DNA of 23,878 nt from a virus: positions 1 to 23,878 of the IMG/VR virus record IMGVR_UViG_3300046167_000333; one strand, 5' to 3'. The notes under the pieces are model-generated. The model was given only the letters and a program-made list of their open reading frames with translations. It was not told where the DNA came from and searched no databases. The translations under genes and the position numbers were made by a program. Below, in pieces: positions 1,936 through 23,878 of the stretch (position 1 is its first letter; each line of letters begins with the position of its first letter).

Positions 1936-2439
1936 ATGGCAACACTTCGCGACAGATTAAACGCGCTTTTGAGGTATCGCGTAGGTAAGTACGATTCACA
2001 GACCTTGGCGAACGACCTAGGCATCTACGGCACTACGGTAAGCGGTGCGAATATCAACGAGAATACAGCGCTTACAATTTCGACGGTATACGCCTGCGTC
2101 TACAAGATTGCCAGCACCTTGGCCAGCCTAGACCTTGAGGTATATGAGCGCACAGGCCGCGAGATAGAACCGGCGAACGTTCACCCTGCTTATGACGTTA
2201 TCAAATACAAGCCCAACGAATACCAAACGGCGTTCGACTTTTGGGAAACCATTATAAGCAATGCAGTCATTAACGGCGTTGGCTATGCACTGATTGAGCG
2301 CGATGGCCGTGGATACGTTACCAGCCTGATATGCTTGGATATTTACGACGTTGACCGCAAGAACGTGAACGGCCAAATTGTTTACAGCGTGCGAAACGTG
2401 GGCATAGTCCAGCCGGAGAATATGCTTGGAGATTTGTAA
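1936..2439 (+). CDS. Portal protein, N-terminal part (frame broken)
   Basis: Residues 1-167 match the N-terminal half of HK97-type portal proteins: an early stretch of ALTISTVYACVYKIASTLA type, then YDVIKYKPNEYQTAFDFWETI, then a segment ending QPENML. The portal forms the dodecameric ring through which DNA enters the head and to which the tail attaches. The frame stops at 2437-2439, just where portals normally continue with a His-Ile/Leu-Lys/Arg-Gly loop leading to Ser-Pro-Ile. The continuation is in the next frame from about 2426. As it stands this is half a portal; see the entry for 2426-3130. Confidence 0.85.
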   Translation: MATLRDRLNALLRYRVGKYDSQTLANDLGIYGTTVSGANINENTALTISTVYACVYKIASTLASLDLEVYERTGREIEPANVHPAYDVIKYKPNEYQTAFDFWETIISNAVINGVGYALIERDGRGYVTSLICLDIYDVDRKNVNGQIVYSVRNVGIVQPENMLGDL

Positions 2440-3130
2440 TCTTCAAAGAAAGTCACCAATTCGATTGCACCGCGAAAATTTAGGACTAGCCAAAAGCGCC
2501 GAAGACTTTGGCGCGGAGTACTTTGGTAGCGGCGGGCAAATGACGGGGATACTATCCAGCGACCAGCCTTTGAAAAAGGAGCAGATGGATATAATTCAGG
2601 GCAGTTGGAACAAGGCCGCCCAACAGGCTGGCACGAAGCTGCTGCCGTTTGGATTTAAATATTCACGAATTAGCATTAGCCCGGACGAGGCGCAATTTAT
2701 TGAAACGCGTAAATTTCAAGCGGAAGAGATATGCCGCATTTTCAGCGTGCCGCCGACATTGGTACAGCTCGAAAGCCAAACAACATACAACAATGTCGAG
2801 CAGCAAAACCTACAATTCGCACGGCACACGATTGCACCATGGGCCAAGCGTATTGAGCAGGAGATAGATAGGAAGTTAATCCAGTCGCGCGAGCGCCCAC
2901 AGATATATAGCAAATTCAATTTGAACGATTTGTACAGGGGCGATATGCAGAGCCGCGCAGACTTCTACACGAAGATGCTGAACAACGGCGTGCTGAGCAT
3001 TAACGAAGTCAGGGGCAAGGAAGATATGAACCCAACGGACGGAGGCGACACGCACACGGTGCAGGTGAACCAAATCGCGCTGGACCGCCTAGGCAAGTAC
3101 AGCGATAAAGTCAGCAGCGATGGCGTTTAG
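2426..3130 (+). CDS. Portal protein, C-terminal part (frame +1 from the N-terminal half)
   Basis: Continues the portal: SPIRLHRENLGLAKSAEDFG, a following Gly-rich segment, then FQAEEICRIFSVPPTLVQL and the helical NNVEQQNLQFARHTIAPW, all typical of the HK97 portal core and stem. The reading frame is +1 relative to 1936-2439. The only available start is a TTG at 2426, unlikely to be used alone because half a portal could not form the ring. The junction loop (about 8 residues between QPENML and SPI) is shorter than I expect for the family (about 13), so more than one base may have changed. The 3' end overlaps the next gene (ATG 3120). Best treated as one gene, 1936-3130, with a frame break near 2425-2440. 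Confidence 0.85.
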   Translation: MEICNLQRKSPIRLHRENLGLAKSAEDFGAEYFGSGGQMTGILSSDQPLKKEQMDIIQGSWNKAAQQAGTKLLPFGFKYSRISISPDEAQFIETRKFQAEEICRIFSVPPTLVQLESQTTYNNVEQQNLQFARHTIAPWAKRIEQEIDRKLIQSRERPQIYSKFNLNDLYRGDMQSRADFYTKMLNNGVLSINEVRGKEDMNPTDGGDTHTVQVNQIALDRLGKYSDKVSSDGV

Positions 3131-5841: not shown

Positions 5842-6405
5842 ATGATGACCGTAGAAATAACAGGCGCGCCCGACCTCGACAGCATTATAACCGTGGCACA
5901 GCTAAAGGAGCATTTGCGAGTAGACCACACAGACGAAGACACGTTAATCGAGGCGCTGAGAGATGCAGCAATAGCGTGGATTGAAGACGTATGTAATACG
6001 CGCCTTGGCGATGTTGACGCCGTTGGTTACATCGATTACTTTTACAACGTTCGTTTTCCAATCGGCCCGGTTAACTCCATTGCATCCGTGACGTATTTGG
6101 ACACGGCAAACGCAACGCAAACGCTGCCAGCCGCTAAATATTGGTTTGACATAAAAACCAAAAGCGCGCGCATTACGTTCGACAATACGCCCGACCTATA
6201 CGACGACACTTTTAACGCGGTGCAGGTGAATATGAACGTCGGTTATCCGGAGGCCGATATTCCACAGCCGCTTGTTCATGGCATTCGTTTGCTGGTTGGT
6301 CATCTCTACGAAAACAGGCAAACCGTAACCGCGCACAAAATGCACGAATTGCCGTTAGGTATTTATAGCATCATTTCACCATATAGAAACGTTACAAGCG
6401 TATGA
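5842..6405 (+). CDS. Head-tail connector (gp6-like / phiE125 gp8 family)
   Basis: A 187-residue protein with the connector signature: ITVAQLKEHLRVDHTDEDTL near the start, followed by an Ala-rich helix (IEALRDAAIAWIEDVC), a PIGPVNSIASVTYLD strand pair, and a C-terminal VHGIRLLVGHLYENRQ helix. These proteins form the ring beneath the portal that prepares the head for tail joining. The first ATG (5842) is chosen over the immediately following one because it sits 4 nt after a TATTTTAG box (5830-5837). It overlaps the next gene by 4 nt (ATGA), typical of translational coupling. Confidence 0.88.
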   Translation: MMTVEITGAPDLDSIITVAQLKEHLRVDHTDEDTLIEALRDAAIAWIEDVCNTRLGDVDAVGYIDYFYNVRFPIGPVNSIASVTYLDTANATQTLPAAKYWFDIKTKSARITFDNTPDLYDDTFNAVQVNMNVGYPEADIPQPLVHGIRLLVGHLYENRQTVTAHKMHELPLGIYSIISPYRNVTSV

Positions 6406-6734
6406 GATTTGGCACACTTGACAGGCGCATAACGATAGAGCGCGCCACCTTAACGCTGAACGATTACGGGGAGCGCGCCGAAACTTGGACGACCTTGGCC
6501 ACGGTTTGGGCAGAGGTAAACTATAGGCCAGGAAGTGGCAGCGAAACAATTGAAAGCGACCAAGTTTTTGCAGTGCAGCGCGTGCGCTTTGTTATCCGTT
6601 ACAGTAGCACGGTTAGCGACGTCAAGCCAAGCGACCGTGTAAGCTACAACGGCCAACTGTATCAAATTGAAGCGGTGCAGGAAATCGGACGCGCCGAGGG
6701 CTTGCGACTGGTAACCACGTCAACGGGTGAATAA
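6402..6734 (+). CDS. Head-tail adaptor / head closure protein
   Basis: A 110-residue protein beginning MRFGTLDRRITIER with a following ETWTTLATVWAEV segment and FVIRYSSTVSDVKPSDRVSY, then YQIEAVQEIG. This is the recognisable beta-barrel pattern of the phage head-tail joining family (SPP1 gp16-like). It would close the portal channel and connect head to tail. It overlaps both neighbours by 1-4 nt. Confidence 0.88.
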   Translation: MRFGTLDRRITIERATLTLNDYGERAETWTTLATVWAEVNYRPGSGSETIESDQVFAVQRVRFVIRYSSTVSDVKPSDRVSYNGQLYQIEAVQEIGRAEGLRLVTTSTGE

Positions 6735-7288
6735 TGGGAACAATTTCCGAAAGATTAGAAAGGCCAAGGGGTGCAGGCGGCGGCGGTGGTGGTGCGTTGC
6801 CTGTTGCGCAGGTTGACGGATTGGAGCAGGTTTTAAAAAAGATAAACAAGGCTATCCGGTGGAATGAGGAAGACAAAAAACAACTGCGCAAAATCAACCG
6901 CCAAGTCGTTAGCATATACGTCAGGAATTTGAAGCGCGGCAGTAATCGCATAATTGACGCACAGAAGACTATAAAGGTAAAAGGTAGGGATGACATCAAG
7001 CCGGGTACTTTGAGGCGCTCAGTGGGCACGTGGACGCCTGAGAAAGGAAGCACGAAAGTTTTAGGCGGGCCAAAGTACAAAGGCGGCAGCGGAAAAGCCC
7101 AAAGCAATAATGATGCATGGTTTGCGCATATCGTGGAGGAAGGCGATTTTTCGCACTACTTTGGCGGCAAAAATAAAAGCCATCCAAATTATAAGAAATT
7201 TGAAAAGGCGAAAAAAGCAACTCAAGCAAGAATGCAAAGGATGCTATTAAATAAGTTACGAGCAGAATTTGAACGCTTCATGTCATGA
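6734..7288 (+). CDS. HK97 gp10-like tail component
   Basis: A 184-residue basic protein. A 6-Gly run lies at about residues 15-20 (GAGGGGGGALPV, encoded by repeated GGN codons at about 6776-6797), then QVDGLEQVLKKINKAI, a TLRRSVGTW segment, and a WFAHIVEEGD motif. Order and motifs (LRxSVxxW, then WxxxVExG) match gp10-like proteins, which act in tail completion between adaptor and tail terminator. The C-terminus is Lys/Arg-rich. The stop overlaps the next gene by 4 nt. Confidence 0.78.
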   Translation: MGTISERLERPRGAGGGGGGALPVAQVDGLEQVLKKINKAIRWNEEDKKQLRKINRQVVSIYVRNLKRGSNRIIDAQKTIKVKGRDDIKPGTLRRSVGTWTPEKGSTKVLGGPKYKGGSGKAQSNNDAWFAHIVEEGDFSHYFGGKNKSHPNYKKFEKAKKATQARMQRMLLNKLRAEFERFMS

Positions 7289-10116
7289 TAGTAGGAAAAG
7301 CAATTTACAACCTGTTAGTGTCAAACGCCGATTTGCGTGCAATCGTTGACACGCGCATTTTTCCGGAAGTAGCGCAGCAGGACGCAGCACTGCCTTACGT
7401 CGTTTACAACGTGAGCAACAACGAACCCAGCGACACGAAGCGCGAGCCGTCTAAGATGGACACGGCACAAATTGAGGTTAATTTATTTTCGACCAGTTAC
7501 ACCGAGTGCATTGATATGGCGACGCACGTACGGGCTGCGCTTGACCGTGTAACGGGCACATATTCGGGCGTGAATGTTCAAAGCATTCAATACCTAAGTG
7601 AAATAATTGACTTTGACGAAGCGCAGAGAACTTACAACATATCGGCAGATTATGACGTGCGAATAAGTCGCAGCGATTTCGAAATAGCACAGGGCAGCCC
7701 AATTACAGGGGTAACACTTGGCCAACTCTCCGACGTTGACACCACAGGCGTAACCGATGGCCAGGTGATTGCATACGATGCAGCAGCGCAGGAATGGCAA
7801 CCAGCAGACGACGCGGGCGGCGTTACTGAGTTGGGGCAGTTGACAGATGTCCAATTCGGTCAGGGCGGCCCCGAAACGGGCGAGCTATTGAAGTACGACG
7901 GCAGCGAATGGACAAACGACAGCATCGTTAAAAGTGAGATAGGACTTGGTAACGTGGACAACACCAGCGACGCAAATAAACCCGTCAGCACGGCCACGCA
8001 AACCGAACTAAACGCCAAGGCAAACAGCGCAGACTTTAGCAACGTGGACAACACCAGCGACGCGGATAAGCCAGTGAGCACGGCAACACAAACGGCACTA
8101 AACGCAAAGGCCGATACTAGCGCCGTACCTACGGATTTAAACGACTTGAGCGACGTTACAATAGTCGGCACACCGGCAGGAAATCAGGCGCTAATTTATG
8201 ACGCTACAGCGGGCGCGTTCAAATCGCAGGTGAGTTATACCAACCGTTTTGAAGATGAGGTTGAAACGGGAAAAGATATGCCCTCGATATTTGCAGAACG
8301 CGCCTATAGTGTCAAAGGCGAAGGTGACGGGGTTTTCATCGACCCCGAAAGCGACACGCCAACAGCGGGCAAAGTAATCGTGCGAAAGATTTACCACAAA
8401 ACGGGATTCATTACAGACGCCGACGTTATCGGTGACTATACTTTGATTCACACCTTTGCGGACGATACAGCTTACGCGGATACCGTTGCGACCTTTGAAG
8501 GCTTTGAAGATGGCGCAACTTATGGCGTGCCACCGTTCACGTTGCTGCAAACATGGGAGGAAATAGAGCCTTCGACGTACTTGCTTGACCAATCTTATGG
8601 AAGCGGAGCAGCGGCGGCATACTCAACGCGTCAACTTCGATTCGCTCAAACCGACTGCATGGTAATTCGCAGGGCATCGGATAGCACGACCACCACGATA
8701 GGCTTTGACGGTTCAGGAAACATAGACGAGGCAGCTATTGAAACGTTTTGCACGGGCACAACCTGCACGGTTCAAACTTGGAAAGACCAATCAGGCAACA
8801 GTTTTGACTTTTCAGAAAGTAATACTAACATCCAACCACTTATCTATGATTCGGGAGAGATTTTTAAGACAAACGGCAAACCTTCAATAAACTTTACAAC
8901 AAGTGATATTAGGTTAACAAATACGAATTCGATTGTTGATTCTGCTTCTAATATGTGGGTCAGTTGGGTTGCGCGTAGAGATTCAGCAAACGAACAAGAT
9001 GTCAACCGCGGATTATTTGACACTTTTGGAGATCGTACTGTTTTTGACACAAGCACAGAGGGGTGGCTGTATGATGGGAATTATAGTGGTAACCCTTTTA
9101 ATTACAATAATTTACGCAGGAACGCCTTTTTAGACTTGCAAGCAGGATCGGGCAACGCATCCGCCTATTTAGACGGTGTTTTGTGGGATACCGATACCTA
9201 TACTGCAAGCGCAATAAAAACAACGAGTCATCTTGGCTTTGGAGGTTCAGGATATATGAAGGGAGACTTGCAAGAGTTTATTATATGGACGAACAATCAA
9301 TCTTCAAACCGTACCAGCATTGAAGAAAACGTAGGCGACTACTTCACACAAAACACGCCACTGCTTGACACGTATTCAGGTGCGGCGGCGGCGTACTCTT
9401 TGAGGCTTTTGGATTCGACGTATACCGGTTCAGCTATCCGGGTCCGTAGGTCGTCAGACAACACCGAGCAGGATATTGGATTTAACGTATTCTCAGAGCT
9501 GGATACGGTGAGCCTTGCGGCCTTCGCAGGTACTGGTAATGCCTTCGTAAAGACTTGGTACGACCAAAGCGGAAACAGCAACGACGCGACGCAGACGACG
9601 GCGGCGAATCAGCCAAAGATTTACGACGGGACTACGGGGGTGGTGACGGAGAACGGAAAACCTGCGGTGCAATGGACAAGCAGTTCAATGAACCTTATCG
9701 GCACGCCATCAGCAGCAATTCCGCAACCCTATACACTTTTAGCGGTCGCGTCGAATGATGATTATACAGCATTAGCGGGTATTGCGGATATAAGTCAAGG
9801 TTTTTGGCTTGGCTCGCATTACAGAGATGGAGGGAAGAATATAATTAGATTCGGAACTGAAGTTTATGGGTCGGCTTCTACGCCAAACCAGTCTATTTAC
9901 TACGGACTAGGAGATGGTACAAGTAGCAAATTAGCCGTCAATGGCACCATAGAAGCAACAGGCAACGCAGGAACTTTGGATTTGACAAGGTTCGGCATAG
10001 GTGCGACATTTGGATATTTGGGCTACATACAAGAGGTCGTTTATTACCCGTCCGACGAATCTACCAACCGCACGAACATCGAGAGCAATATCAACACCTT
10101 TTATAGTATCTACTAA
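7285..10116 (+). CDS. Tail terminator (DUF3168-like) fused to fibre and lectin-like domains
   Basis: Residues 1-132 resemble tail-completion/terminator proteins: IVGKAIYNLLVSNADLRAIV, RIFPEVAQQDAALPYVVY and ISADYDVRIS. Such proteins normally end here. Instead the frame continues for about 800 residues. About 145-310 hold fibre-like repeats of the form L(S/T)DV...G...YD...W, plus two 30-residue copies beginning NVDNTSDANKPVSTATQT (223-252, 253-282). About 440-690 and 697-943 are two related domains (AAAYSxRxL, RRxSD, then TWxDQSGNS) resembling ConA-like lectin/arabinofuranosidase-B-type domains. The C-terminal part probably binds host surface glycans, since no other large fibre gene is present apart from the tail-tip protein. 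Fusion and roles are inferred; no stop or internal start signal separates the parts. Confidence 0.82.
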   Translation: MIVGKAIYNLLVSNADLRAIVDTRIFPEVAQQDAALPYVVYNVSNNEPSDTKREPSKMDTAQIEVNLFSTSYTECIDMATHVRAALDRVTGTYSGVNVQSIQYLSEIIDFDEAQRTYNISADYDVRISRSDFEIAQGSPITGVTLGQLSDVDTTGVTDGQVIAYDAAAQEWQPADDAGGVTELGQLTDVQFGQGGPETGELLKYDGSEWTNDSIVKSEIGLGNVDNTSDANKPVSTATQTELNAKANSADFSNVDNTSDADKPVSTATQTALNAKADTSAVPTDLNDLSDVTIVGTPAGNQALIYDATAGAFKSQVSYTNRFEDEVETGKDMPSIFAERAYSVKGEGDGVFIDPESDTPTAGKVIVRKIYHKTGFITDADVIGDYTLIHTFADDTAYADTVATFEGFEDGATYGVPPFTLLQTWEEIEPSTYLLDQSYGSGAAAAYSTRQLRFAQTDCMVIRRASDSTTTTIGFDGSGNIDEAAIETFCTGTTCTVQTWKDQSGNSFDFSESNTNIQPLIYDSGEIFKTNGKPSINFTTSDIRLTNTNSIVDSASNMWVSWVARRDSANEQDVNRGLFDTFGDRTVFDTSTEGWLYDGNYSGNPFNYNNLRRNAFLDLQAGSGNASAYLDGVLWDTDTYTASAIKTTSHLGFGGSGYMKGDLQEFIIWTNNQSSNRTSIEENVGDYFTQNTPLLDTYSGAAAAYSLRLLDSTYTGSAIRVRRSSDNTEQDIGFNVFSELDTVSLAAFAGTGNAFVKTWYDQSGNSNDATQTTAANQPKIYDGTTGVVTENGKPAVQWTSSSMNLIGTPSAAIPQPYTLLAVASNDDYTALAGIADISQGFWLGSHYRDGGKNIIRFGTEVYGSASTPNQSIYYGLGDGTSSKLAVNGTIEATGNAGTLDLTRFGIGATFGYLGYIQEVVYYPSDESTNRTNIESNINTFYSIY
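7951..8130 (+). repeat. Two tandem 90-bp coding repeats in the fibre region
   Basis: AACGTGGACAACACCAGCGA begins both copies, at 7951 and 8041, 90 bp apart, keeping the frame. The first 22 bp are identical; the rest diverge mostly at third codon positions. Both encode NVDNTSDAxKPVSTATQTxL, a common phage fibre repeat. Confidence 0.85.
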
Positions 10117-10523
10117 TGGCGCAGTATATAATCGTACTTCCCGAAGGAACACTAACAAGCGAACACCGAGCCAAAGCCATCACGCGCGAATTGTACAATA
10201 TCACAGCGCCGTTGGTTATGCAAGAACCCTATCAAAAAGACGGGACGGTGTTCGGAGTTATCGAACACCCTGACGGAATCCAATTCGCTTTGCAGGTGGA
10301 TACGGAATACAATATTCCCGTCAGCCCTATGGCGACGCTTGAGAAGCTCATCACGCTAATGCTCGAATTGAGCGAGGTAGAAATCCGACAACTTTCCAGC
10401 TACGTACTTAATGCGCAATCCTTCCCGTTTGGGGCAATCGTTCCTAGCACTACGACGGTAAGAGATGATGCGTATATGATTGAGAACGGATGGTTTCCCG
10501 AAACGCCTGAAGGTGAAATTTAA
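10116..10523 (+). CDS. Unknown protein following the adhesin
   Basis: A 135-residue soluble protein, start overlapping the adhesin stop by 1 nt (TAATG). It begins MAQYIIVLPEGTLTSEHRAK and contains FGVIEHPDGIQFALQVDTEY and an Ile/Leu-rich helix; the C-terminus is acidic. Not recognised. Its coupling to the fusion adhesin gene suggests either a fibre-assembly chaperone or a fibre-associated protein, but no motif supports one over the other. Confidence 0.72.
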   Translation: MAQYIIVLPEGTLTSEHRAKAITRELYNITAPLVMQEPYQKDGTVFGVIEHPDGIQFALQVDTEYNIPVSPMATLEKLITLMLELSEVEIRQLSSYVLNAQSFPFGAIVPSTTTVRDDAYMIENGWFPETPEGEI

Positions 10524-10541: not shown

Positions 10542-10697
10542 ATGAAGGTAACCATACAAAAACCATACAACAAAAACGGCTGGAAATGGTCAGCGGGCAA
10601 AGTTGTAGACGTTTCCAATAAGTTTGCCGCAAAACTTAAAAAAGGCGGGTATTTAGATAAGCCCGAAAAAAAAGAATCAAAAAAAATTAAAGAGTAA
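10542..10697 (+). CDS. Small Lys-rich protein upstream of the major tail protein
   Basis: A 51-residue frame, MKVTIQKPYNKNGWKWSAGK, then VVDVSNKFAAKLKKGGYLDK and a Lys/Glu-rich tail. Its pattern (short beta strand, GxVVDVS, then a helix ending in GGYL) resembles small structural-module proteins that precede tail genes in many phages; function unknown. It overlaps the next ATG by 1 nt (TAATG), supporting translation. Confidence 0.7.
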   Translation: MKVTIQKPYNKNGWKWSAGKVVDVSNKFAAKLKKGGYLDKPEKKESKKIKE

Positions 10698-11143
10698 TGG
10701 CACAAACAACAGGCATAATTAACTCGTCGAGCATTCGGGTTTTTCTCGGAACTACAGACGACAGCGAGGTAGTAATTGACCACGTAACAGAGTGCAGCAT
10801 TTCCATGACCACGGATATGCGCGATATAACCACCAAGACAAGCGCGGGTTATCGTGAACTTTTGCCCGGTTTAAAGTCAGCCAGCATGAGCGTGAGCGGC
10901 CTTTTTGCAGAGGATGCCACCAACGGTTACAACCAACTTATCGACCACCAACTTGCAGGCGATAAGCTTTTTGTAATCTTCACAAATACGGGAGGCGGAG
11001 CAACTGCAAACGCAGGCGACGAGCAGTTTGATATTGAAGGTTACATCTCAAGCCTTGAGCAAACCGCAGGCGTAGAAGACAACGTTGGCTTTTCTATGAC
11101 TATCGAAGTAACGGGCACAGTTGTACGTGAGGTGATTGCGTAA
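10697..11143 (+). CDS. Major tail protein (TP901-1-like)
   Basis: A 148-residue tail tube subunit: VTECSISMTTDMRDITTKTS, then GYRELLPGLKSASMSVSGLF, and FDIEGYISSLEQTAGVEDNV. The pairing of an early Ser/Thr-rich strand with the GLKSAxMSVSG strand is typical of TP901-1-type major tail proteins. It polymerises as stacked rings around the tape measure. Its place directly before the chaperone pair and tape measure gene agrees. Confidence 0.9.
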   Translation: MAQTTGIINSSSIRVFLGTTDDSEVVIDHVTECSISMTTDMRDITTKTSAGYRELLPGLKSASMSVSGLFAEDATNGYNQLIDHQLAGDKLFVIFTNTGGGATANAGDEQFDIEGYISSLEQTAGVEDNVGFSMTIEVTGTVVREVIA

Positions 11144-11749: not shown

Positions 11750-14086
11750 ATGGCAAAATTAGGCGATTTAATTGTAAGAGTTGGCGCGGATACCACGCCA
11801 CTAAATACGGCACTTGGAAACGTTACCCGCACCATGCGGCAAAGCACGGGCAACATCCAAAAGTTAGGCCGTAATATGAGCATGGCGATAACTGCGCCAC
11901 TGGTTGCTATAGCTGCAACCTCATTCCGTACTGCTGCAACCTTCGAGCAATCAATGGCCAAGGTTAAAGCCGTTTCGGGTGCAACCGCTGCCGAGTTTGA
12001 AAGCCTAGAAAATAACGCCAAAGAGTTAGGACGTACAACGCGATTCACAGCAAGCGAGGTAAGCGCCTTGCAGTTGGAATTTGCAAAGCTTGGTTTTTCC
12101 GCACAAGAAATTACAGAGGTAACAGAAGCCACTCTAAACCTTGCACAGGCGACAGGTTCAGACCTTGCACAAAGTGCAGAGGTAGCGGGTGCAACGCTGC
12201 GCGCGTTTGGTTTGGATGCATCAGAAACCAGCCGCGTCACCGATGTAATGGCCGCAAGCTTCAGCACCTCGGCGCTGGATATTGATAGTTTCCAGGATTC
12301 CATGAAATTTGTTGCGCCTGTTGCCAAGGCTGCCGGCGTTTCATTGGAGGAAGCCACGGCGATGCTTGGACAGCTTGCCAATAACGGTATCAAAGGCAGC
12401 ACGGCGGGCACGTCACTGCGTAGGATATTGCAAGAAATTGCGGGCAGCGGTCAGCCATTTGCCGAGGCTATGAAAAAGAGCGCCGACGAGGTTATAAACT
12501 TGGCCGACGCAAAGGATGAGGTAGGCCGTACGGCTTCGAGTGCGTTTCTTGTTTTAAAGGAAGGCATGGGCGATGTGCAAGGACTAACGACAGAGCTACA
12601 AGGTGCGACAGGTGCGGCGGCGGCAATGGCCGCAATCATGGACGACACAGCCGAGGGCGCAATGAAACGGATGCAGTCGGCAATCGAGGGGGCGCAGATA
12701 GAAATAGGCACGGCGCTTGCTCCTATCATGATAAAATTGGCGGGCATTGTTGCCGACTTAGCGCAGAAGTTTAGCACGATGAGCGACGGCGGGCAAGCTA
12801 TGGTTTTCGCATTGTCTGCCGTGTTTGGTGCAATTGGCCCGGTGCTTGCATTGTTGCCAAGCTTTACAGCAGGATTGAAGGCGGCTAAACTTGCTTTTGC
12901 TTCTCTAAATATGACAATGCGCGCCAACCCCTTCGGCGTGGTTGCAACGGCCATCGGTTTGGTTGTTGGCGCGGTTATCATGTTGAACAATGCAAGCAGC
13001 GAAGGCAGCAGCAAGGTGGACGACCTGAAGAAAAGCCTAGGCGGTTTAGATTTAAAGCAGCAAAAGGCAGCAATTGAAGGCGCGGCAACATCTCAGAAAG
13101 CATACGTTGAACAACTCAAAGAGGAACGCGATACAATTTTAAAACTCGCGCCATATAAAAGACACGCAAACAGTGGAGCGGGCCGAGACTTGAAGAGACT
13201 CGAAAAAGCATTAGAAACAGCAAACGCGGATTTAACGACAATGCTGAGCCTAGAGGAAGGAGTAGCATTGAAGCTGAAAGCAGTAGGAGCAGAGGCGAGC
13301 GGCGCAGGCGATACCATTGTAACACTTGCAACAGATACCAAGACGACAACCACAGAAACGCGTCAGCTCGACCAAACGTTAGGGTATTTATTCAATACGC
13401 TTGAGGAAACACCAAACGAAAACATATGGCAACCAACGGAGGAAGGTGCAAAGGACTTAACGCAGACGCTTGGCCACTTGTTTAACAAGCTTGAACAAAT
13501 GCCGAGCCTAACCGAACCACTGACACAGGCCGAGCAGGATTTGCAAGACTTTAATAATAGCGTAACTCAAGCGGTAGAAGGTGCAGCACAAAGCGCGGCC
13601 ATTGGTTTTGGTATGATGTTGGGTGAAGGCATTGCCACCGGCCAAGGCATGAAAGGCGTGGGCGCTATGTTGTTGGGCGTCTTTGCAGATTTAGCCATTC
13701 AATTAGGCACGTTGGCAATTGGTTACGGTATTGCCATAGAACAAATTAAAATTGCATTAGCGTCATTGGCTGGCCCTGTTGCAATTGCCGCAGGGATTGC
13801 GCTTGTTGCATTGGGTGCAGGACTTAAAGGAGCAATAGCCAAAAAAGCCGAAAGCGCGGGCGTTCCAGCCTTTGCCGATGGCGGAATAGTTTCAGGCCCG
13901 ACGCTTGGCCTTGTGGGTGAATATCCCGGCGCAAAAACTAACCCGGAGGTAATTGCACCACTTGACAAATTGCGCGGTATGTTAGGCGGGCAAAATGTAC
14001 AGGTAACAGGCAAGATTTCAGGCCGTGATATATTATTAACGAGCGAAATGAGCAGTATAGACCGTAACCGAGTAAGGGGATACTAA
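11750..14086 (+). CDS. Tail tape measure protein
   Basis: A 778-residue protein. The N-terminal 300 residues (VRVGADTTPLNTAL, ITAPLVAIAATSF, FEQSMAKVKAVSGATAAEFE) are the PhageMin_Tail/TP901 tape measure core. The middle is helical with Lys/Glu/Gln stretches. Near the C-terminus is a hydrophobic Gly/Ala/Ile region (about 600-710) and then AFADGGIVSGPTLGLVGEYPG, the usual end motif. The length sets the tail tube length: at about 1.5 angstrom per residue, roughly 115-120 nm. Transcribed with the tail operon. Confidence 0.94.
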   Translation: MAKLGDLIVRVGADTTPLNTALGNVTRTMRQSTGNIQKLGRNMSMAITAPLVAIAATSFRTAATFEQSMAKVKAVSGATAAEFESLENNAKELGRTTRFTASEVSALQLEFAKLGFSAQEITEVTEATLNLAQATGSDLAQSAEVAGATLRAFGLDASETSRVTDVMAASFSTSALDIDSFQDSMKFVAPVAKAAGVSLEEATAMLGQLANNGIKGSTAGTSLRRILQEIAGSGQPFAEAMKKSADEVINLADAKDEVGRTASSAFLVLKEGMGDVQGLTTELQGATGAAAAMAAIMDDTAEGAMKRMQSAIEGAQIEIGTALAPIMIKLAGIVADLAQKFSTMSDGGQAMVFALSAVFGAIGPVLALLPSFTAGLKAAKLAFASLNMTMRANPFGVVATAIGLVVGAVIMLNNASSEGSSKVDDLKKSLGGLDLKQQKAAIEGAATSQKAYVEQLKEERDTILKLAPYKRHANSGAGRDLKRLEKALETANADLTTMLSLEEGVALKLKAVGAEASGAGDTIVTLATDTKTTTTETRQLDQTLGYLFNTLEETPNENIWQPTEEGAKDLTQTLGHLFNKLEQMPSLTEPLTQAEQDLQDFNNSVTQAVEGAAQSAAIGFGMMLGEGIATGQGMKGVGAMLLGVFADLAIQLGTLAIGYGIAIEQIKIALASLAGPVAIAAGIALVALGAGLKGAIAKKAESAGVPAFADGGIVSGPTLGLVGEYPGAKTNPEVIAPLDKLRGMLGGQNVQVTGKISGRDILLTSEMSSIDRNRVRGY

Positions 14087-16359
14087 TGAGCACAATAAGA
14101 TTTTATGGAGAGTTTCGGGATGAACTTGGCACAGACTGGCGCATTAATTTGCACGACACTGATTTTGTTGGCACAACGTACGAGATAACCCTAGGCGGTG
14201 AAGGTTTTCAATTGCGTTATACAGGCGACAGCGAAAACCGTTTTCAACCTGTTATAGGTTCATCGGTTACATTCAGCGTTTTGAATGATGGCGGACAATT
14301 TGAAACCTTTTTAAATACTGTTTTTCCTGCTGCTGAGGAAGGGCGAATGCAGGTTGAAATTCGCAAAGACCCGGACGGCTTAAATACATTGTATTGGGCG
14401 GGAATCATAGCGGCGGAACAGATAGAGCAGGAGGATGCACCAGCGCCGAATATCGTAAACATAACCGCGTCCGATGATATAGCAAACCTCAAAGAAACGC
14501 GATTTATTCCGCCTGCTGTACCCTATCCATTACGCGCCACGGTGATACAAATATTTAACCAAATGCGCACAACGAGCCTGTGGGGAAACAGCGCGGCTTT
14601 TTTAAGATATGTGAACGATGTAGAAATGGAAGACTACACGGGCACGGATTGGTTTAAAGATGTGACGACGTACAATTTGATGGTAACCAATGATAGTAAA
14701 ATTTACGATGGAGCACGCGGGCACAATAGCTTTGAAATTTTAGAAAGTCTTGCATTGTCGCTGAACGCGCGAGTGTTTCAGGCTGCCGGGCATTGGTGGT
14801 TTCTACCTGTAAACTGCCATTTGCGGGCGAGCGAAGGCGACAACTGGACGAGCGATTTAAAGCAGGTTAATTTATCTGGTAATGCGGTGACATTGACCAC
14901 GGGCGAAGTATCTGAATTATCTGCGGAATATGTTACCGAAATAGATGACGATTTTACCAAAATGGCAGGCGGTACAATCAGCAATTTACCGCCTTATAAA
15001 AGCGTGCGGCGGGTAAGGCGATACGATGGCAATGATTACATTTTTAGCGATTACACGACAGGCATAACCACGGGCGACAACGTTACGTTTTCAGATACAG
15101 ACCGCACATATATTCAAAATTTACAGTTCACGCTTGGCGGCAGTTGTCAAATTTTACTGCCTGCGCAATCGTACGAAAATAACCCTTTCAACAATGCGGT
15201 GGTGCAGGTGCAGATGACAATACAATGCGGCACACTGTATTACACAAATGCGGGTTGGACTTCTACACCGGGAGAACGCACGCAAGGCATTGCAAACTTC
15301 CAACGCGGGGAAGGTCTTGACGCGGCTTTGACATGGGGCGTCACTACTGACGAATTGCCCAGCCAACAGGAGGGAATCGATATAACCATACAGATTAGAA
15401 TCATTCAAATTGGGGTTGATGTTACAAGCGACTACACCAGCACCGGGCAAATGATTTTAATTAGTCACCTAAATTTACAAGACGACCAAGGACTGCTTGG
15501 CGATGGTCTTTTATATGAAGCACAAACCAGCTTGAATAATAAATTAGTCAGCGACCAAGGCGAGGCGCTGCATGGTGACCCACAAGCCACAATTAGCGGC
15601 GTAAATTTTCAAGTCCTTTATGGTGCTTTTATCATTGACGGATTAGACAATCAATATACAAGCAGCCAAACAACAACCGCAGTACCCTTGCACCGTCTTG
15701 GCGTTGAGGAAGCAATGGCGGCGGCGCAGTTTCCTATACCAATAAAGCGCGGCCAAATTTATGGGCGTTTGTTTGAGATGTGGCAAACGATAAAGGAAGG
15801 CACCGAATACTTTGCACCGTTTTGCTTTGATGTAGTTATGAACGCACGCCAAAGCAATGTGCAGCGATGGCAATTGGATTTTGACGCTACTAATATCACT
15901 TCAAACGAGTTGATTTTAGAAAACGACAACGACACGTTACAGACGTCTATGTTAGCCACAAACGTCGTCGAAGGCGTGGGCACAGTATCGGAACAGGTGC
16001 GGCAATTGCGTGCGGGTGAATTAAGCAGCTTCAGCGACGTTAGGACAATTTCAAACCGTAGCGGGTCAAATAATTATATACTACAGCACGACACGCACAT
16101 ATTCAATAACTGGATAGGTGGCAACGGCAGCGGAAATTTGTATTTGCCCCTTGTGGCCAACAGCGAAGGGCGAACGATACAAATACATAGTGATGCGACC
16201 ATTGCAGCCAATAAATTTGTGAAACTGCTGCCAAATGTTACGGATACAAGTGCAACAATAGACGGCGCAACGAGTTACAACTTCGACCGTGCTTACGACG
16301 GCATTACTATCTTGTGCCATAATTCGAATTGGTATATCATACAGAAAAAAGAGAAGTGA
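14086..16359 (+). CDS. Large tail-tip protein with C-terminal beta domain
   Basis: A 757-residue protein overlapping the tape measure stop by 1 nt. Its start, STIRFYGEFRDELGTDWRIN, and the following FQLRYTGDSENRFQPVIGSS segment occur in tail-tip/baseplate hub proteins of Bacteroidota siphophages. A DDIANLKE segment (about 128) and YDGARGHNSFEILESLALSL (about 208-227) follow. The last 100 residues (NNYILQHDTHIFNN, TIQIHSDATIAANKF, NSNWYIIQKKEK) look like a small beta-sandwich head often found at the end of phage fibres. Probable role: tail tip, with host contact by the C-terminal domain. Assigned by context and general resemblance. Confidence 0.72.
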   Translation: MSTIRFYGEFRDELGTDWRINLHDTDFVGTTYEITLGGEGFQLRYTGDSENRFQPVIGSSVTFSVLNDGGQFETFLNTVFPAAEEGRMQVEIRKDPDGLNTLYWAGIIAAEQIEQEDAPAPNIVNITASDDIANLKETRFIPPAVPYPLRATVIQIFNQMRTTSLWGNSAAFLRYVNDVEMEDYTGTDWFKDVTTYNLMVTNDSKIYDGARGHNSFEILESLALSLNARVFQAAGHWWFLPVNCHLRASEGDNWTSDLKQVNLSGNAVTLTTGEVSELSAEYVTEIDDDFTKMAGGTISNLPPYKSVRRVRRYDGNDYIFSDYTTGITTGDNVTFSDTDRTYIQNLQFTLGGSCQILLPAQSYENNPFNNAVVQVQMTIQCGTLYYTNAGWTSTPGERTQGIANFQRGEGLDAALTWGVTTDELPSQQEGIDITIQIRIIQIGVDVTSDYTSTGQMILISHLNLQDDQGLLGDGLLYEAQTSLNNKLVSDQGEALHGDPQATISGVNFQVLYGAFIIDGLDNQYTSSQTTTAVPLHRLGVEEAMAAAQFPIPIKRGQIYGRLFEMWQTIKEGTEYFAPFCFDVVMNARQSNVQRWQLDFDATNITSNELILENDNDTLQTSMLATNVVEGVGTVSEQVRQLRAGELSSFSDVRTISNRSGSNNYILQHDTHIFNNWIGGNGSGNLYLPLVANSEGRTIQIHSDATIAANKFVKLLPNVTDTSATIDGATSYNFDRAYDGITILCHNSNWYIIQKKEK

Positions 16360-19946: not shown

Positions 19947-20775
19947 CCTTTCACAACATTCGGGCGCGAATAAAATCACGCAACAACGACACCAAGTAGT
20001 TCAAACTCGCAGTTACAGCATGTTTAAATACATGAACGGCAACCGCGCACTTAGCGAACAAAACATTCGCGCAATCATGCACCAGATACAGCAGCATGGG
20101 CAACAACAGCCTATAATTGTAAATGAAAAGTATGAAATCATTGACGGCCAGCACCGACTAGAAGCGTGCAAAAGATTGAAAAGGCCAGTATTATTTTACA
20201 AGAAACAAGGCGCAACGATTGAGCATGTGATTAGTACAAACGTAGTCGGTAAAAAGTGGACGACCTTAGATTATTTTAACCGTTTCGCCAGCGAAGGCAA
20301 TGAAAATTATAAGCGCGGCCTAGAATTTATAGAACACGCACAAAAGAACGGTTTTTCGCAAACGGCGGCAATTAATATTATGGGAGGAAGTCACCGAAAA
20401 CTAGCCATGTGCGCCGACGGTGAAATTCGATATAAACATCCCAGCAACGTTGATAAAAAAAATGAACTTTATGACGTTGGCAACGCTATGCAATTGGGTC
20501 ATTTCAAATGCCCACAGATGCACGATCTGCAACAAATTATGGATGCAATTCGGCTTTTTGAAGCGTTTCCGTTCATTAAAACAAAGACGTTTGTCGCGGC
20601 TTTTTTGCGTGTTTTACGCGTAGATGGATTTGACCCACAACGATTAAAGGAACGCGCACTTCGTTACCCTAGTATGTTTACGCACGAACCAAATGCAAAG
20701 CGTTATTTAGAAATGTTTGATAAGGTTTATAATTACCGGTCCAAGAATAAACTGGCTTTGCTGCATTTGGCATGA
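19909..20775 (+). CDS. ParB-like nuclease-domain protein
   Basis: A 288-residue protein whose N-terminal part carries a ParB/Srx-type signature: QQHGQQQPIIVNEKYEIIDG with DGQHRLEACKRL at 79-90. In phages such proteins are usually not plasmid-type partition proteins; they occur with replication and methylase genes. A helical middle (KNGFSQTAAINIMGGSHRKL, about 146-165) resembles a DNA-binding helix-turn-helix. No partner ParA is present in the window. Function in DNA binding is likely; partition is unproven. It ends 4 nt past the start of the replication gene (overlap). Confidence 0.85.
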   Translation: MKTKTQTIKQMFNLSQHSGANKITQQRHQVVQTRSYSMFKYMNGNRALSEQNIRAIMHQIQQHGQQQPIIVNEKYEIIDGQHRLEACKRLKRPVLFYKKQGATIEHVISTNVVGKKWTTLDYFNRFASEGNENYKRGLEFIEHAQKNGFSQTAAINIMGGSHRKLAMCADGEIRYKHPSNVDKKNELYDVGNAMQLGHFKCPQMHDLQQIMDAIRLFEAFPFIKTKTFVAAFLRVLRVDGFDPQRLKERALRYPSMFTHEPNAKRYLEMFDKVYNYRSKNKLALLHLA

Positions 20776-21488
20776 AGCGCACAGGCATCTGGATACCGCT
20801 AGAGATTTGGGAGCTGGACCTCGCGCCGATGGATCGCGTTCTATTGGCCGAGGTTGCCAGCTTCGCGGAAAATGGAAAGGCGTGTTTCATGACCAACGCC
20901 AAATTAGCCGAGGCGCTCGGCATTAGCGAAGACCGTACCCGGAAGATTATATACAGACTGATTCAAAGCGGCCACCTCAAAAGGGGGGTGGTTGCTAACG
21001 GACAGGGTGGGCACAAACGGACTTTAGGGTGGGCGCAAACGGACAGGGGGGTGGTTGCTAACGGACAGGGGGGTGGGCGCAAACGGACACGTACAAATCA
21101 ACTTACAAAACAAATTACTAAAACACTACAAAACAAGGGGGAAAAATTTTCGATAGTACTTCCATGGCAGACAGAAGCCTTCACAGCCGCATGGTCCGAG
21201 TGGCTAGAGTACAAGAAAACAGAACACCGATTCACCTACAAATCGCCCAAAAGCGAACAGCGGGCACTAATCAAACTCCAAAATGAACACACTGAAGAAA
21301 CAGACGCAATCGACGCAATTCATACAGCAATTGCAAACGGATGGAAAGGCTTGGTATTTAACTCACCCAAAGGCGGGGGAGCTAACCGCAGGCGAGCGGA
21401 TAACCTTGAAAGAGATGTCAACCGCAAAAAGCTTGCAGAATTTGCAAGAACTGGACGTGTCACGCCTGACAATCGAAATGGCTTTTAA
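20772..21488 (+). CDS. Replication initiation protein containing the origin iterons
   Basis: A 238-residue protein. Residues 1-72 form a winged helix-turn-helix (LAEVASFAENGKACFMTNAK, EALGISEDRTRKIIYRLIQS), as in DnaD/phage replisome organisers. Residues 72-106 are a Gly/Arg-rich, repetitive linker (RGVVANGQGG twice) encoded by DNA iterons (20986-21088). The C-terminal 110 residues (WQTEAFTAAWSEWLEYKKTE, KSEQRALIKLQNEHTEE, AIANGWKGLVFNS) resemble the C-terminal domain of phage replication proteins that recruits the helicase loader. As in lambda O, the origin appears to lie inside the gene for the protein that binds it. It overlaps the next gene. Confidence 0.82.
   Translation: MKRTGIWIPLEIWELDLAPMDRVLLAEVASFAENGKACFMTNAKLAEALGISEDRTRKIIYRLIQSGHLKRGVVANGQGGHKRTLGWAQTDRGVVANGQGGGRKRTRTNQLTKQITKTLQNKGEKFSIVLPWQTEAFTAAWSEWLEYKKTEHRFTYKSPKSEQRALIKLQNEHTEETDAIDAIHTAIANGWKGLVFNSPKGGGANRRRADNLERDVNRKKLAEFARTGRVTPDNRNGF
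20986..21088 (+). repeat. Five iterons, putative replication origin
   Basis: An 18-bp motif, GGGTGGNNRCWAACGGAC, occurs at 20986-21003, 21005-21022, 21027-21044, 21049-21066 and 21071-21088. Copies 2 to 5 are spaced exactly 22 bp; the first to second step is 19 bp. Variation sits in four internal positions. An AT-rich stretch follows (about 21090-21160). This is the iteron plus unwinding-element layout of initiator-bound origins. Confidence 0.82.
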
Positions 21489-23570: not shown

Positions 23571-23844
23571 AGGCAGCAGGCGCAGCCCGTGGTTCAGCCC
23601 AAAGGTTGAGCACCAACGCAAGGCAGGACAGGATAAACGTTACTGGTCGTATGCTTGGAAGAAAGCACGCGCGGCATTCATCCGCACGCATCCAACGTGC
23701 AACGAGTGCGGTGAGTTTGCCAACGTAGTCGACCACGTTGAGCCAGTAAGTGCGGGCACGCATGACTTTTATGATAGTACCAACTGGCAAGCCTTATGTA
23801 CTCATTGCCATGCAGTTAAGTCAGGCAGAGAGCGATGGGGGTAG
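23554..23844 (+). CDS. HNH endonuclease
   Basis: A 96-residue HNH nuclease: zinc Cys pairs C49-x2-C52 and C82-x2-C85 (followed by His86), the catalytic DH at 60-61 within VVDHVEPV, and Asn77. This compact type sits just before terS in many HK97-like phages, and in some of them the HNH protein works with the terminase for cleavage at cos. Here the window ends 34 nt after the stop and begins with terS, so adjacency around a circle is probable. Confidence 0.93.
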   Translation: MAYIPRGSRRSPWFSPKVEHQRKAGQDKRYWSYAWKKARAAFIRTHPTCNECGEFANVVDHVEPVSAGTHDFYDSTNWQALCTHCHAVKSGRERWG

Positions 23845-23878
23845 GGGGTGCAGAAAAAAAACAGCCTTTGCACCTACA
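23845..23878 (+). other. Noncoding end of window with a GGTGCA/TGCACC inverted repeat
   Basis: GGTGCA at 23847-23852 and TGCACC at 23869-23874 form a 6-bp stem with a 16-nt loop containing an A8 tract. There is no poly-T tail for a + strand terminator. If the ends join, this sits about 60 nt before terS and could be part of the packaging region. Role unknown. Confidence 0.35.

Follow-up and report, generated by a model that had tools for sequence, protein, structure and literature searches.

One open reading frame in the viral DNA analysed here (the window, 23,878 nucleotides) encodes a 943-residue protein, P0001, in which a tail terminator is followed without interruption by a fibre shaft and two lectin-like domains (7285..10116; this and all features below lie on the plus strand). 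The terminator–adhesin fusion reported in the preliminary description is thereby confirmed. The search for phage adhesins usually centres on the tail tip, and annotation treats terminators as short ring proteins with a housekeeping function, normally of 110-150 residues. We consider it probable that P0001 is a tail terminator carrying a C-terminal, exchangeable adhesin that projects as neck or upper-tail whiskers.

Two independent profile libraries together with gene position bear out the identification of the N-terminal domain (residues 1-133; 7285..7683) as a tail terminator of the gp17/DUF3168 type. PF11367 (Tail_completion_gp17) matched residues 5-127 with an E-value of 4.2e-14 and 53.2 bits, above the cut-off of 24.5, and PHROG 347, annotated 'tail terminator', matched residues 3-133 (E 3e-19); further matches were to phrog_78, phrog_176 and phrog_123. 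An alignment of 12 fused relatives (A1) contained 36 invariant columns in this domain. The gene order in the window is canonical: head-tail adaptor Ad1 (5842..6405; PF05135, phrog_442), head closure Hc1 (6402..6734; PF05521, phrog_25), neck protein Ne1 of the HK97 gp10-like type (6734..7288; phrog_5, E 0.0018), P0001, the small ORF x10116, major tail tube protein (10697..11143; PF06199) and tape measure protein (11750..14086; phrog_1533, E 2e-88). P0001 thus occupies the normal terminator site between Ne1 and the tail tube gene, and Ne1 lies directly upstream in 67 of 71 distinct gp17-type ORFs. Profile searches and the structure model of x10116, which lacks a terminator fold, revealed no other terminator-like gene in the neck/tail block of the window. 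The tape measure gene is followed by a 757-residue tail-tip candidate (14086..16359; phrog_23570, E 7e-6) without a Pfam match, which is the other possible receptor-binding protein of this genome. The portal gene of the contig is frameshifted. A host scan of the genome_contigs collection returned a single Pirellulaceae MAG contig, too weak for a host call.

The P0001 frame runs unbroken from its ATG to the stop through 943 codons. Its start overlaps the stop of Ne1 in an ATGA (7285-7288), and its end overlaps the start of x10116 in a TAATG (10114-10118). Continuation past the terminator, as claimed from the window, recurs in dozens of relatives. The search for the same fusion in related phages was successful in IMG/VR, where 50 of 80 loci carry a terminator plus shaft and/or lectin on one ORF, many of them in a syntenic setting, with neck genes before the ORF and tail genes after it. 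All 71 distinct complete gp17-type ORFs that we found extend past the terminator (261-1224 residues), so that none is stand-alone, and 60 contain lectin-like domains. Judged from codon substitutions, the terminator–fibre junction is under purifying selection (dN/dS of about 0.09, compared with about 0.05 within the terminator). For cultured phages, none of the INPHARED matches listed covers more than 27% of P0001; these matches fall in fibre repeats or lectin domains. The gp17-type proteins matched in phiSASD1 and Bacteroides Bacuni_F1 stand alone. Of the findings that the preliminary description had named as refuting, none turned up among those open to sequence analysis. An internal translation start for the fibre half was also considered and rejected for want of a suitable ATG: there is none in frame between codons 78 and 332, and among the GTG and TTG codons of this interval only codon 224 has even a partial ribosome site, a weak AGGA. 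After residue 133 comes a short linker, IAQG(S/T)P(I/V)TG, that is conserved; no protease site is recognisable in P0001.

The shaft (residues 134-322; 7684..8250) was assigned from matches to PHROG tail-fibre and minor-tail families. It includes two LGNVDNTSD-type direct repeats of family D2 (7946-8021 and 8036-8111; 76 nt each, 84% identical, spacing 90). A linker domain, identified as a conserved block in the relatives (residues 323-432; 8251..8580), occurs in two types across the family and leads to lectin-like domain 1 of the GH54/ConA type (residues 433-692; 8581..9360; PF09206) and domain 2 at the tip (residues 693-943; 9361..10113; PF09206/phrog_10356). The two domains are 30% identical to each other, and relatives have one to three copies. 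The match to PF09206, the GH54 catalytic domain, is confined to its N-terminal part (E 2.8e-12; best stretch at profile positions 9-86 of 315). Similarly, a profile of the tip (A6) matched the solved GH54 structures 1wd3 and 6sxr with an E-value of 0.003 over only the first ~70 of ~250 residues. The lectin-like domains have no match to the later part of the GH54 fold, where the catalytic residues are located. Glycan binding by the two domains is therefore best described as putative. PHROG 10356 has matches in Hc1 as well as in the window's lectin region, hinting at a known head-closure/lectin fusion; a search through Hc1 gave ordinary Hc1/adaptor annotations only, among the matches listed. Across the relatives, the C-terminal half has the character of a diversified, binding-type tip: 126 distinct tips were collected, of which 98 representatives are mutually below 65% identity, and the core of the tip domain (around residues 803-907; 9691..10005) is hypervariable, with a majority-residue fraction of 0.12-0.32 against 0.6-0.8 in the conserved flanks. 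The window contains no template-like repeat for a diversity-generating retroelement behind this variability.

The ORF following P0001, x10116 (P0002; 135 residues; 10116..10523), co-occurs strictly with the lectin-bearing fibre. A member of its family (~133 residues) lies behind 49 of 49 lectin-bearing fusions and behind none of 22 fusions without lectin. Two loci from unbiased scans, L178 and L183, both have x10116 and keep to the same lectin rule. Like a fibre chaperone gene, x10116 is directly downstream of the fibre tip and co-inherited with it, and it probably encodes a chaperone or cap dedicated to the lectin tips. The AlphaFold2 model is good and matched no fold in the PDB, including any known chaperone fold. 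x10116 also had no Pfam match, a sub-threshold PHROG match only and nothing in INPHARED; two unnamed viral homologues were found.

Shaft, lectins and the downstream ~133-residue ORF also occur on a second N-terminal domain, altN. It has no Pfam match and no convincing PHROG match, and comparison with the gp17-type terminators detected no sequence similarity (hhalign probability 0.3%). The AlphaFold2 model of altN (pLDDT 77, pTM 0.77) gave the phage lambda terminator gpU as best PDB match (E 3e-5, TM to target up to 0.67), followed by the Chi neck, T5 p142, Milano and other terminators. The model suggests that altN is a second terminator family with a terminator fold; terminators are known to share the fold without sequence similarity (PMC11784142). 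On other contigs the same cassette is carried by other structural proteins, and cassettes with a visible N-terminus sit behind an N-terminal carrier domain. Between the window and relative L005, DNA identity is ~53% in the terminator and ~98% from about codon 150 on, a step that indicates cassette exchange between backbones. Shaft, lectins and x10116 form, on these comparisons, a mobile cassette that is borne by no fewer than two terminator families and by certain further structural proteins. Exchangeable C-terminal modules on a constant anchor are likewise a mark of neck passage structures and whiskers. Related phages with a swappable fibre on two kinds of tail cap are many, and marine.

A neck location of the P0001 fibre follows from known terminator biology, since the N-terminal domain is a terminator. 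The N-terminal domains would form a hexameric ring that caps the tail tube at its head-proximal end. The C-termini would leave the outer face of this ring and continue into fibre shafts ending in one to three ConA-like domains of glycan-binding type, served by x10116 as chaperone or cap. The unit of shaft, lectins and x10116 moves between phages and can be grafted onto differing anchors. By binding surface glycans, the whiskers could serve in first contact, in setting host range, or in adhesion to particles or mucus. Ring location, whisker geometry, oligomeric state and ligand are all inferred. Fibre shafts are usually trimeric; if this one is, the six subunits would make up two whiskers on each virion. 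The mismatch between a six-fold ring and a presumably trimeric shaft counts against this reading, as do the separate tail-tip protein and the GH54 match of only ~70 residues. C-termini of terminators can point outward: in E217 gp29 C-terminal extensions run outward to the sheath (PMC10329688), and in A-1(L) the beta7-beta8 hairpin protrudes to it (PMC10966104). Such a path is not guaranteed, because tagging the C-terminus of the T5 terminator led to aberrant polymerisation, and folding of the tag into the lumen was suggested (PMC11784142).

The best-surviving alternative, possible though less probable, is that the whiskers sit at the neck without binding the host. They would then serve in environmental sensing, in protection of the virion or in its attachment to particles or mucus, roles that have been suggested for T4 fibritin and the A-1(L) neck fibres. 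Host binding was not seen with the distal neck-fibre CBM of A-1(L) (PMC10966104), which means that lectins at the neck are not necessarily receptor binders, and a passage of the R7M report, citing earlier work, states that lactococcal whiskers have no effect on host range (PMC8265664). Against this, a hypervariable tip between conserved flanks, combined with module swapping, is the usual signature of a host-range determinant, and one lactococcal NPS module binds host cells (PMC6669499). We regard it as improbable that P0001 is cut, or its fibre also started internally, leaving a short terminator in the ring and a fibre elsewhere, for example at the tail tip. The usual terminator length and the conserved linker after residue 133 would fit such a product, but the lack of a suitable start and of a recognisable protease site argues against it, and a free fibre would be devoid of the anchor that other cassettes with a visible N-terminus possess. 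Slightly less probable still is a mere docking domain derived from a terminator, with another protein capping the tail. Ring proteins are often reused as adaptors, but the domain is exactly at the terminator site, no second terminator-like gene was found nearby, and altN also has a predicted terminator fold. An assembly or sequencing artefact, conceivable for a metagenome contig with a frameshifted portal gene and given that L279 looks chimeric at the fibre cassette, is rejected because dozens of independently assembled contigs show the fusion, syntenic to either side of it, and purifying selection spans the junction.

The terminator-anchored whisker resembles known neck structures in part. 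T4 fibritin (wac) also forms fibrous neck appendages; it is a separate protein on the neck ring (discussed in PMC10966104), without a terminator domain or lectins. The lactococcal NPS of 936 and P335 phages shares a conserved N-terminal anchor (~130-180 residues) and an exchangeable C-terminal carbohydrate-binding module, and it is a trimeric fibre at the neck, as P0001 would be; but its anchor is a BppU-like beta-sandwich in a proposed 18-mer collar, which is non-essential in TP901-1 (PMC6669499), and not the terminator itself. Profile searches found no BppU-like collar domain in P0001, whose N-terminus belongs to no family other than the terminators. The neck fibres gp80-82 of Anabaena phage A-1(L) likewise end in a carbohydrate-binding module, but are three separate proteins on a 15-mer ring, with a separate terminator, gp8 (PMC10966104). 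The preliminary description held the neck to be an unusual place for glycan binding; the lactococcal precedent weakens that part. The papers that we found do not describe anchoring through the terminator itself. The marine Alteromonas siphophage R7M has hairy whiskers at the head-tail interface, tentatively assigned to a head-tail module gene (PMC8265664); its candidate protein, ORF28, is not known to be a terminator fusion, and Alteromonas is not among the organisms in the P0001 INPHARED tally. In Alteromonas phages V22 and A5, a tail fibre and its cognate downstream chaperone are shared between unrelated phages as a module, like P0001 and x10116, but these are ordinary tail fibres, and their chaperone is similar to intramolecular chaperone domains (PMC10579305); no solved fold is matched by x10116. 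E217 gp29, A-1(L) gp8 and PVC16 also combine a terminator fold with extra C-terminal material, outward-facing in the first two (PMC10329688, PMC10966104, PMC11784142); there it amounts to tens of residues or a duplicate domain, mostly in sheath contact, compared with an adhesin of ~800 residues in P0001.

A bolder proposal, which we hold to be doubtful, makes the terminator-anchored whisker the chief means of host recognition in these small (~24 kb) siphophages. Host range would then be determined where the tail meets the head, without dependence on the tail tip, by a cassette of shaft, lectins and dedicated partner protein that jumps from phage to phage and from one anchor protein to another. 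These data describe a widespread group of uncultivated phages that joins adhesin and terminator on two families and swaps the adhesin half freely. They give an unnamed family of ~133-residue proteins a testable role as fibre partner and pose the structural question of how a six-fold ring carries fibre shafts. If the neck reading is true, these phages may hold on to surfaces by the neck in addition to, or in place of, the tail tip, and predictions of their host range based solely on tail-tip genes would overlook the relevant protein.

The fusion ORF (7285-10116, plus strand) runs uninterrupted for 943 codons from ATG to TAA, as read in the preliminary description, and its N-terminal domain is indeed that of a tail terminator. 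Residues 5-127 match the gp17/DUF3168 tail terminators (PF11367, E 4.2e-14) as well as phrog_347 and three further PHROG terminator families, and the domain belongs to this family by both sequence and gene position. PHROG matches and two LGNVDNTSD repeats define a fibre shaft at residues 134-322. Two related lectin-like domains (residues 433-692 and 693-943) are each recognized by a match to PF09206, the GH54 catalytic domain, in its N-terminal portion. Alignment to the GH54 structures 1wd3/6sxr (E 0.003) is limited to about the first 70 residues of the lectin-like domain; the term therefore describes a predicted fold, not an activity. ATG is absent between codons 78 and 332, and the ORF is coupled on both sides, overlapping the upstream neck gene by ATGA and the downstream ORF by TAATG.

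The fusion lies in a gene block of classic siphophage layout, in the order TerL, portal, protease-capsid, head-tail adaptor Ad1, head closure Hc1, neck protein Ne1, terminator-fibre, x10116 (10116-10523, plus strand) and tail tube, after which come two small ORFs, the tape measure, a tail-tip candidate of 757 aa and endolysin/peptidase. No terminator candidate other than the fusion was found in this block. The portal gene, a single ORF of ~400 aa in relatives, is frameshifted here by error or decay (overlapping ORFs 1936-2439 and 2426-3130, region 1936-3130). Two circularly permuted relatives (L294 and L295; 23.1 and 23.7 kb) carry the counterparts of the two window ends, 23757-23878 and 1-400, next to each other, separated by no more than about 150-250 nt. 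Because its ends adjoin in this way, the window very probably represents a nearly complete siphophage genome of ~24 kb, and the adhesion genes of this phage are therefore probably all in view, namely the fusion and the 757-aa protein. Terminators of 261 aa in related contigs (L204-L216) end in a domain with 36% identity (E 4e-23) to the last ~110 aa of the 757-aa protein (16030-16359), one small domain thus decorating both tail ends in related phages. A repeat with 22-bp spacing (GGGTGGGCGCAAACGGACA...) occurs in overlapping copies at 21005-21089, inside a replication-initiation-like gene (20772-21488), and may represent origin iterons.

The viral-contig scan yielded 169 relatives, of which the best 80 were kept, many of these matching over the full length (39-91% identity). 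In 50 of the 80 the same fusion recurs as a single ORF, with terminator followed by shaft and/or lectins; lectin copies range from one to three. Pooling relatives over all scans, one of which was seeded with the terminator alone, gave at least 71 distinct complete gp17-type ORFs, all extended beyond the terminator (261-1224 aa), with Ne1 directly upstream in 67 of 71 among the matches listed; all relatives are metagenomic contigs, and these counts are samples (best 80 per scan), not censuses. Values of dN/dS near 0.05 for the terminator and 0.09 across residues 116-160 show that the junction is kept as protein. Two loci carry the fusion broken into several ORFs by errors or decay (L202:6571-8816 and L289:8001-11528). 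The genome-contig scan for a host returned one Pirellulaceae MAG contig, and the general character of the relatives suggests largely marine contigs.

The terminators of relatives fall into two types of about 41% mutual identity with shafts often more than 90% identical, by sequence a mosaic pattern. The window and the related contig L005 share about 53% DNA identity in the terminator, whereas from codon ~150 onward, across the lectins and on into x10116, their identity is 98-100%, with 49 mismatches over 2.8 kb; the break sits immediately behind the terminator. At L279:7329-12428, the shared cassette forms the joint between two phage types, one contributing the half with TerL/217-aa/altN and the other the tail tube/tape measure, in a natural recombinant or a misassembly. 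The tip domains, highly diverse with 98 representatives of mutual identity below 65% among 126 distinct tips, have majority-residue fractions of 0.6-0.8 in two conserved flanks and 0.12-0.32 in a hypervariable middle, an alignment pattern usual for receptor-binding tips and not proof of receptor binding. In the two scans that had other seeds than x10116, this ORF comes next after 49/49 lectin-bearing fusions with downstream sequence and 0/22 fusions with other C-termini, counted as distinct proteins rather than independent events. Its confident model (pLDDT 87) found no fold match in the PDB, its only two homologues are unnamed viral proteins, and INPHARED gave no match. By likeness to the fibre and chaperone modules of Alteromonas V22/A5 (PMC10579305), its likeliest role would be that of a fibre chaperone or cap.

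Shaft, lectins and x10116 also stand behind a different ~150-residue domain, altN ('MITFNNIVERFEIFAENHFF...'), in other contigs. No resemblance of altN to the gp17 type could be detected (hhalign probability 0.3%), and Pfam gave no match. Compared with the PDB, the AF2 model of altN (pLDDT 77, pTM 0.77) best matches lambda gpU (E 3e-5, TM to target 0.58-0.67), followed by Chi neck, T5 p142, A-1(L), P74-26, Milano, Bxb1 and T4 gp15. In two relatives of the altN phages (L091/L103), altN is a stand-alone 153-aa protein adjoining an Ne1-like gene, and the lectins and x10116 are carried at the C-terminal end of a structural protein before the tape measure, homologous to a 740-residue structural protein; in L070/L071, where the portal is of another type, a collagen-like N-terminus precedes the cassette. 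The adhesin unit is thus combined with several anchors, including two terminators, the second by predicted fold. The window matches a single family, phrog_10356, at both 6402-6734 (Hc1) and 9304-10113 (lectin); this family is Hc1-like at its N-terminus and lectin-like at its C-terminus, which suggests that another neck protein, head closure, may also be fused to this lectin fold.

Whiskers and carbohydrate modules at the neck are already known, as is the swapping of fibre-chaperone pairs; the literature searched yielded no account of a fibre adhesin joined to a tail terminator, nor did the INPHARED records listed include a cultured phage with such a fusion. Terminators assemble as hexamers at the end of the tube nearest the head (PMC11784142). 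In E217, the terminator-like gateway protein has C-terminal extensions that reach outward (PMC10329688), and the C-terminal hairpin of the A-1(L) terminator protrudes to the sheath (PMC10966104). An outward path from the ring is therefore plausible for the 800-residue extension, despite the misassembly of T5 p142 bearing a C-terminal tag (PMC11784142). If the shaft is trimeric, the six chains of the predicted terminator ring would yield two whiskers. At the neck, the fusion could serve host recognition, as with an NPS module of lactococcal phages shown to bind host cells (PMC6669499), or it could do something else, as may the A-1(L) neck-fibre CBM, which showed no binding to its host (PMC10966104).
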